DNA of 45,369 nt, from contig JAPJNA010000033.1 of assembly GCA_026461395.1 (NCBI GenBank), positions 1 through 45,369 on the forward strand, in the 5' to 3' direction. The translations under genes and the position numbers were made by a program. Position 1 is the stretch's first letter; each line of letters starts with the position of its first letter. Origin of the DNA: Chthoniobacterales bacterium. Lineage in GTDB: Bacteria > Verrucomicrobiota > Verrucomicrobiia > Chthoniobacterales > UBA6821. The notes under the pieces are model-generated. The model was given only the letters and a program-made list of their open reading frames with translations, ran no database searches and was not told the DNA's origin. Below are positions 8,962-10,166 of the stretch, one piece after another.

Positions 8962-9924
8962 TTAACCGTTCACTTTTTTAACTCTTCTCAGCGTTGGTGA
9001 AGCTTTGCGGGGGCGCTTGGCAGGCGGGCGATCCTTGGAGTCGGCACCTTTCACGCGGGATCTCTCCGAACGATATGAAGCCGGCGACTTACCCGAGGTA
9101 GGCGATTGAATTGATTTGGATGCTTTGGAAGACAAGGGCATGGGCGTGAAGAGCGGACCCTTGATGGCACTAAGAGTCTTGGCCCTCGGTTTGCGAAGAA
9201 ACGCTGGCTTTTCTTTCTTCAGCTTCGGTGCTTTTAGTGCTTTTTGGAGAATCTCAAGATCCTCCTTACGCAGATCACGGTAACTGCCGGGCTTGATCCC
9301 TCGGAGTGTGAGAGGGCCAAGGCGCACTCTGGTAAGTCGTTTCACATTGAACCCGATCTGACCTAGCATGACGCGGATCTGGCGCTTGATTCCCTGATGC
9401 AGGATGATCTGGATCTTGTTCGGGGCAAGATTGCGCACGGACTCGATCCGGGCGACCGAACCCTCGATCCAGGTGCCGCGTCGGAGTGATGCTGCATCTT
9501 TGTCTGTGAAGGTCTTGTCGAGAATTACCTCGTATTCCTTGTCGACCCCCTTGGAGGGATGCATGAGGTCCTGTGCCAGGATCCCGTCATTGGTTAGCAG
9601 CAGAAGCCCTTCGCTATCCTTGTCGAGGCGTCCGACATGGAAAAGGTGTCCCGTGTCTGAGGGAAGTAGGTCGAAGATGGTGCGCTCTGCGTGCTTGTCG
9701 CTGCGGGTGCAGGTGTAGCCGGCAGGTTTGTTGAGTATAATCGTCCGAGGAGCGAAAGCATGAATGACGCGTCCGCTTAACCGGACATCATCCTCCGACA
9801 GGACCCGGGTCGCGAGATCGCGGCAGACGGAACCATTGATGGAAACGCTTCCCTTGAGGATCAGTTCCTCGCAGGAACGGCGGGAACCAAGCCCTGCCGC
9901 AGCTAAAAAACGATTCAGGCGCAG
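8962..9924 (-). CDS. Pseudouridine synthase, RsuA/RluB type, non-canonical start
   Basis: Converts a uridine in rRNA to pseudouridine. Read without interruption, the frame encodes an S4 RNA-binding domain (RLNRFLAAAGLGSRR) and then the catalytic domain with GRLDKDSEGLLLLTND (catalytic Asp codon 9622-9624) and KEYEV. A tail of about 100 Lys/Ser/Arg/Pro-rich residues follows. There is no in-frame ATG, GTG or TTG between the stop at 10087-10089 and the ATG at 9564, which lies after the catalytic Asp. A CTG at 9924, six bases after AAGAG-like sequence and at the S4 boundary, is my best start (320 residues). A CTG at 10014 overlapping the upstream TGA is an alternative. A frameshift or assembly error cannot be excluded. 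Confidence 0.8.
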   Translation of the reverse strand: MRLNRFLAAAGLGSRRSCEELILKGSVSINGSVCRDLATRVLSEDDVRLSGRVIHAFAPRTIILNKPAGYTCTRSDKHAERTIFDLLPSDTGHLFHVGRLDKDSEGLLLLTNDGILAQDLMHPSKGVDKEYEVILDKTFTDKDAASLRRGTWIEGSVARIESVRNLAPNKIQIILHQGIKRQIRVMLGQIGFNVKRLTRVRLGPLTLRGIKPGSYRDLRKEDLEILQKALKAPKLKKEKPAFLRKPRAKTLSAIKGPLFTPMPLSSKASKSIQSPTSGKSPASYRSERSRVKGADSKDRPPAKRPRKASPTLRRVKKVNG

Positions 9925-9948
9925 ACCCGTCTCTTTGGGTGTGCGCCT
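9917..9948 (-). promoter_or_regulatory. Stem-loop over the 5' edge of the pseudouridine synthase gene
   Basis: A 12-bp stem with one mismatch (9917-9928 with 9937-9948) closes an 8-base loop. On the minus strand it is followed after six bases by T6. It covers the candidate CTG start and its AAGAG, so it could hide the start or act as an attenuator after the small basic protein gene. The gap before the T run makes it a poor classical terminator. Confidence 0.45.
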
Positions 9949-10010
9949 GATGCTTGGGGATTCACCGGTTGTAACCGTTCTTCCCTTGGGCGAATGATCC
10001 GGTAAAGGGA

Positions 10011-10166
10011 TCAGGCTTCTGGCTTGGTTTTGGGCAGGCCGATGACGCGCTGTCCGGCTTTGAACTGACCACGCTTCTTGAGCAGTTCAACGCGCTCATA
10101 GCGCTTCAGCACGCTGCGTTTGGCAGCGATTGTGCTGCTTCCTTTAAGGCTGGGATGTTGGCTCAT
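10011..10166 (-). CDS. Small basic protein, Chlamydiae/Verrucomicrobia family
   Basis: A 51-residue, Lys/Arg-rich protein beginning MSQHPSLKGSSTIAAKRSVL, with core KRYERVELLKKRGQF and a conserved-looking end RVIGLPKTKPEA. From memory this matches a small basic protein family found in Verrucomicrobia and Chlamydiae, whose ribosome- or nucleic-acid-related role is only inferred from charge and conservation. The start is the ATG at 10166; there is no Shine-Dalgarno motif. It lies between sufT and the pseudouridine synthase gene on the same strand, and its TGA overlaps a CTG that could serve the next frame. It is the best taxonomic marker in the window. Confidence 0.85.
   Translation of the reverse strand: MSQHPSLKGSSTIAAKRSVLKRYERVELLKKRGQFKAGQRVIGLPKTKPEA

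Follow-up and report, generated by a model that had tools for sequence, protein, structure and literature searches.

A pseudouridine synthase gene of a Chthoniobacterales bacterium was found to lack canonical start codons upstream of its active site. The observation is real and, on comparison with relatives, most plausibly reflects a conserved non-AUG start covered by a hairpin. The gene lies on the minus strand of the window (the whole 45,369-nucleotide stretch of contig JAPJNA010000033.1 that was analyzed), in the order NifU-like protein, SufT, TIGR04137 small basic protein, synthase and Rid-family protein (Table 1). Its open frame spans 10086 to 8962 and is closed on the 5' side by a TGA at 10089-10087. 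As claimed in the first-pass annotation, no ATG, GTG or TTG occurs in this frame between that TGA and the ATG at 9564, and the S4 and catalytic domains are matched in one frame, without a frameshift or an internal stop. The claim that the gene would be truncated to 200 residues was also borne out, as the ORF from the 9564 ATG has this length and loses the catalytic Asp of HVGRLDKDSEG (9624-9622). Gene finders probably cut the active site off the synthase in lineages with a CTG.

Table 1. Features of the synthase locus (positions in the window)
Feature	Position	Strand	Basis or remark
RluF/RluB-type pseudouridine synthase, from proposed CTG start	8962..9924	-	PF01479 and PF00849; TIGR00093 and RluF/RluB/RsuA profiles; PDB 3dh3, E 4e-36
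First in-frame canonical start, ATG	9562..9564	-	Lies beyond catalytic Asp; would mislead gene callers
Proposed CTG start codon	9922..9924	-	ATG or TTG in five congeners
AAAGAG in hairpin loop, weak Shine-Dalgarno-like	9931..9936	-	Strong AAGGAG/AAGGA only in L011/L012
Conserved RNA hairpin including start codon; 3' arm = codons 0 to 2	9916..9949	-	Fold, covariation, covariance model
Alternative CTG start overlapping upstream TGA (CTGA)	10012..10014	-	ATG in L014; TGA = 10013-10011
TIGR04137 small basic protein gene, 5' of synthase, probably cotranscribed	10011..10166	-	Profile E 1.9e-26

In the synthase an S4 domain precedes PseudoU_synth_2, whose RLD contains the catalytic Asp, as is characteristic of the RsuA/RluB/RluF family, and the protein shares GRLDKDSEG and this two-domain architecture with the 23S rRNA pseudouridine synthases RluF and RluB; RluF is its best solved relative (3dh3). 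It differs from these enzymes in its CTG start and start hairpin and in scoring below the NCBIfam equivalog cutoffs, both for RluF (152.5 versus 318) and for RluB (118 versus 290), and because of these scores the target uridine was left without an assignment. A search for the 23S rRNA of this genome did not find it. The body of the gene is under strong purifying selection (pN/pS of 0.06 to 0.09), and the synthase is, as judged from its sequence, an ordinary, functional member of the RluF/RluB group. A second, partial synthase match, to the C-terminal half at 56% identity, was detected at G005:C94:6792-7238 (L035), in the genome whose main synthase copy has CTC at the position discussed below.

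Synthase orthologues were read in 14 congeners and in 11 relatives from the order. Directly before the R(L/I)NR(F/Y)LA motif, 10 of the 11 order relatives have ATG and the other has GTG. Among the congeners, the equivalent of codon 9924 (codon 0) is CTG in seven (L001 and L004 to L009), TTG in two (L010 and L011), ATG in three (L012, L015 and L016), CTC in L013 and ATC in L014, and in L010, L011, L012, L015 and L016 it is the sole canonical in-frame start upstream. According to the first-pass annotation, a canonical ATG at this position in related species would count against a non-AUG start. Such codons were found, but they do not refute it; rather, because relatives carry ATG or TTG at the homologous position, CTG 9924 emerges as the most likely start of the synthase, and the non-AUG option raised earlier gains support from the comparison. 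Three further species (L004, L005 and L007; other MAGs, with genomes 86 to 93% identical) likewise have no canonical start. Since L006, L008 and L009 have an additional upstream ATG at codon -14 or -6, CTG use in the strict sense can be claimed for four species. In L013 and L014 an ATG is located farther upstream, at -10 and -42, respectively, and the start has therefore left codon 0 there.

The pattern of constraint changes sharply at the proposed start. Values of pN/pS were 0.49 for codons -30 to -10, 0.41 for codons -9 to -1, 0.00 for codons 0 to 8 and 0.09 for codons 9 to 100, and the coding score per codon was -0.14 upstream of 9924 and +0.09 downstream. The pattern of substitutions at codon positions 1 and 2 versus position 3 also differed between the two sides (Fisher P of ∼1e-5 in two pairs, an approximate value, as sites were taken as independent), and codon 9924 aligns with position 1 of the RsuA profile. 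A near-cognate ATC at codon -9 was rejected as a conserved start; it is ACC in L004 and L005. The CTG species were unresolved in a protein tree, which did not contradict a single origin of the CTG. Overall, these comparisons point to a conserved protein without a usable canonical start in four species, with a CTG homologous to the ATG or TTG start of relatives.

The window derives from a MAG contig, and a sequencing or assembly error, or a pseudogene, could in principle produce a missing start. This explanation is given next to no weight: the state is common to the genomes of four species, which excludes the assembly error that had been listed as an option, and the intact, strongly constrained body argues against decay of the gene.

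The rarity of such a gene was examined in a start-codon survey of 343 kb, or ∼17% of the genome, containing 226 scored genes (L104 to L123 of G000 plus the window). No other scored gene had substantial coding signal lying ahead of its first canonical start (12.0 nats for the synthase, versus 2.5 for the next gene), and the synthase also had the longest distance from stop to first start, at 174 codons (median, 7; next longest, 101). ATG, GTG and TTG make up 5% of codons, and the chance of finding none in 120 body codons is ∼0.2%. The lack of these codons in the body nevertheless looks incidental, because a GTG is present at codon +46 in most close relatives; the informative absence is that at and before codon 9924. 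In the same 343-kb sample, start regions were lower in GC and less structured than gene interiors, and Shine-Dalgarno pairing was weaker at ATG starts than in gene interiors; the 16S 3' end of a congener was normal (CCTCC). At 9924 this pairing is weak (-2.9 kcal/mol), and the genome hardly uses a Shine-Dalgarno sequence. Such pairing, which was weaker at sampled starts than in in-gene controls, was discarded as uninformative support for 9924.

Two CTG codons had been proposed as starts, one at 9924 after AAGAG and one at 10014 overlapping the upstream TGA, and both were present as described (AAAGAG precedes the former). Initiation at 10014 by termination-reinitiation would add a 30-residue N-terminal extension, and passing ribosomes would open the hairpin. 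In L014 an ATG occupies the equivalent place (ATGATCCC), and in lineages with CTGATCC or ATGATCC the distance to the RLNRF motif is 66, 84, 90, 99 or 126, always a multiple of 3. The gap from the small basic protein stop is likewise the same modulo 3 where codon 0 is CTG, TTG or CTC (86, 80, 80 and 62). In the window's group, moreover, frame 0 upstream has a lower pN/pS (0.54) than either of the other frames (0.93 and 1.63), which is a point against 9924. The lower value in frame 0 and the constancy of the gap therefore leave room for an upstream start; the overlap with the preceding stop, the ATG of L014, a frame kept despite changes in length and the low frame 0 value account for the small share of probability that we leave to 10014. 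This start is nonetheless improbable: constraint upstream of 9924 is weak (pN/pS of 0.5) and the coding score there is negative, no coding signal was detected upstream in L006 to L010 (ratio of 0.92), and L006, L008, L010, L015 and L016 have no CTG at this place. In L012 the CTG motif lies 24 nucleotides from any overlap, and a proper ATG is present at codon 0. The small basic protein stop also carries a perfect 6-bp inverted repeat, TGATCC-N7-GGATCA (9995-10013). L007, L012, L013 and L014 share this repeat, and L009 and L011 have a version with one G-U pair.

CTG 9924, the preferred start, lies within a stable hairpin in which the leader is paired with codons 0 to 2 (CAGGCGCA-C-ACCC / GGGT-C-TGCGCCTG). 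A 12-bp stem-loop at 9917-9948 covering 9924 had been noted in the first pass; the stem-loop stands, but its extent is 9949-9916, with 8 plus 4 bp around a 1-by-1 mismatch that involves the C of CTG 9924 and an outer U-A pair added in the window. Its minimum free energy is -25.2 kcal/mol (50 nucleotides; z of -6.3), and the start region had a lower minimum free energy than any of the 136 starts sampled. In 7/7 distinct sequences the 1-by-1 mismatch (CC, TC, CT, CA or TT) contained the first base of the start codon, and since that base is unpaired, a change in it costs no stem pair. In the alignment, 94% of cells were paired, versus 88% in shuffles (0/500), and covariation was 0.20, versus 0.09 in shuffles (reached by 3/500) and far above all slid registers. 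Three pairs were changed on both sides. In L011 both arms of the stem were rewritten together (C-G to G-C and G-C to U-A), and in L012, which was left out of the covariance model, the inner part is a different, longer helix with AAGGA again at the loop.

A covariance-model search of the genus genomes detected the hairpin in 12 of the 14 gene-carrying congeners, at the synthase start only; second matches were the opposite strand of the same palindrome. The carriers are exactly the congeners with ATG, TTG or CTG at codon 0, and the model did not detect the hairpin in L013 (CTC) or L014 (ATC). It was not found in the sister genus with this model, two weak matches in order relatives (G051 and G057) were near chance, and Rfam gave no credible match. 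Codons +1 to +5 form the only run in the gene of at least three identical codons (11 species). Within it, AATCGTTTT (9907-9915, codons +3 to +5) showed no synonymous change in 13 of 14 congeners, irrespective of whether the hairpin was kept, rewritten or lost. Covariation, restriction to this locus and synonymous invariance therefore indicate that RNA structure at the start is under selection. As far as sequence comparison can tell, the hairpin is a genus-specific, selectively maintained RNA element including the start codon, and the earlier option of start-region folding is supported together with that of a non-AUG start.

A different function for the same structure was considered, in which the hairpin and the following T4 to T6 act as a transcription terminator or attenuator, or as an mRNA 3'-end stabilizer, of the small basic protein gene; the synthase level would then be set by read-through, and overlap with the synthase start would be positional. 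The hairpin does lie just 3' of that gene, a GC hairpin followed by TTTCTC occurs in the gap after the small basic protein in L024, L026, L028 and L030, and the invariant AATCGTTTT is situated past the stem. In L014, where the start hairpin has been lost, the small basic protein stop is followed directly by a perfect 9-bp hairpin (TTACTACTC/GAGTAGTAA). Against this, the hairpin is missing exactly where codon 0 is no longer NTG, and a terminator scan returned a 5-bp substem only, with nothing above chance. The T6 reported to follow the stem is present (9910-9905), but it begins 4 to 5 nucleotides past it, whereas in an intrinsic terminator the U tract directly follows the GC-rich stem; the tract is merely T4 in L007, L010, L012, L015 and L016. 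The T tract is also partly dictated by conserved Arg-Phe codons. The case for an intrinsic terminator is weak, and we regard the terminator or attenuator explanation in its broader form as unlikely, if deserving of some weight.

The reading that we favor as a whole, with moderate confidence, is that of a drifted CTG start inside a maintained hairpin that keeps translation of the synthase low; codon homology, the step in constraint and hairpin conservation come from the comparisons above, and we infer the control. The start codon would have drifted from ATG or TTG to CTG (9924) in one set of freshwater Spartobacteria. The synthase would be translated from the mRNA of the small basic protein gene just upstream, cotranscription being probable, and the hairpin may hide the start codon and compete with 30S binding. 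The weak CTG would lower initiation further, and synthase translation would be low relative to that of the small basic protein. Synthase levels in the cell are probably low and controlled.

We hold it to be very unlikely that the hairpin has a dedicated regulatory function, being bound for example by the synthase in feedback on its own CTG start or responding to another signal. The loop GAGACGGGTC resembles, over a short stretch, the rRNA substrate of RluB and RluF, GAGACAGTTC, in CTG species only. Mimicry of rRNA was rejected: the likeness is not conserved among the other hairpin carriers, and 1 to 10% of shuffles reach it. RluB and RluF are able to bind isolated rRNA stem-loops (PMC3919597). 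If true, this explanation would amount to feedback control of an rRNA modification enzyme.

Some parallels exist with known systems. In Escherichia coli, infC has an AUU start, a non-AUG start that serves as a control point. The synthase resembles infC as a translation-related gene with a weak start codon, and the likeness is in these two respects, IF3 discrimination and feedback being features of infC. As in mRNA hairpins that sequester start codons, the start codon contributes bases to a stable stem, but here the element is confined to one genus and one gene and lies outside Rfam. CTG is a very rare bacterial start codon, and natural cases are rarely documented. Switches to CUG were found for 2 of 61,358 AUG, 1 of 5,080 GUG and 1 of 2,468 UUG starts (Belinky et al. 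2017, PMC5622118). The present case is like those in that AUG or UUG was replaced by CUG at a homologous start but unlike them in that the CTG is kept by up to seven species, with a conserved hairpin; because replacement by CUG is so rare elsewhere, its retention across several species is unusual.

The small basic protein gene and the synthase gene are adjacent in 14 of 14 congeners and also in the relatives L021, L023, L025, L027, L028, L029 and L031, which suggests a possible functional link between the two around the ribosome. CTG starts are not sought by automatic annotation, and in these lineages the annotated synthase probably lacks its active site, which is a warning for users of such annotation. 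Comparison pins the candidate CTG start to a single codon, at which ATG, TTG and CTG interchange within a conserved hairpin, and the locus would thus provide a compact test case for the joint evolution of start-codon strength and leader structure.
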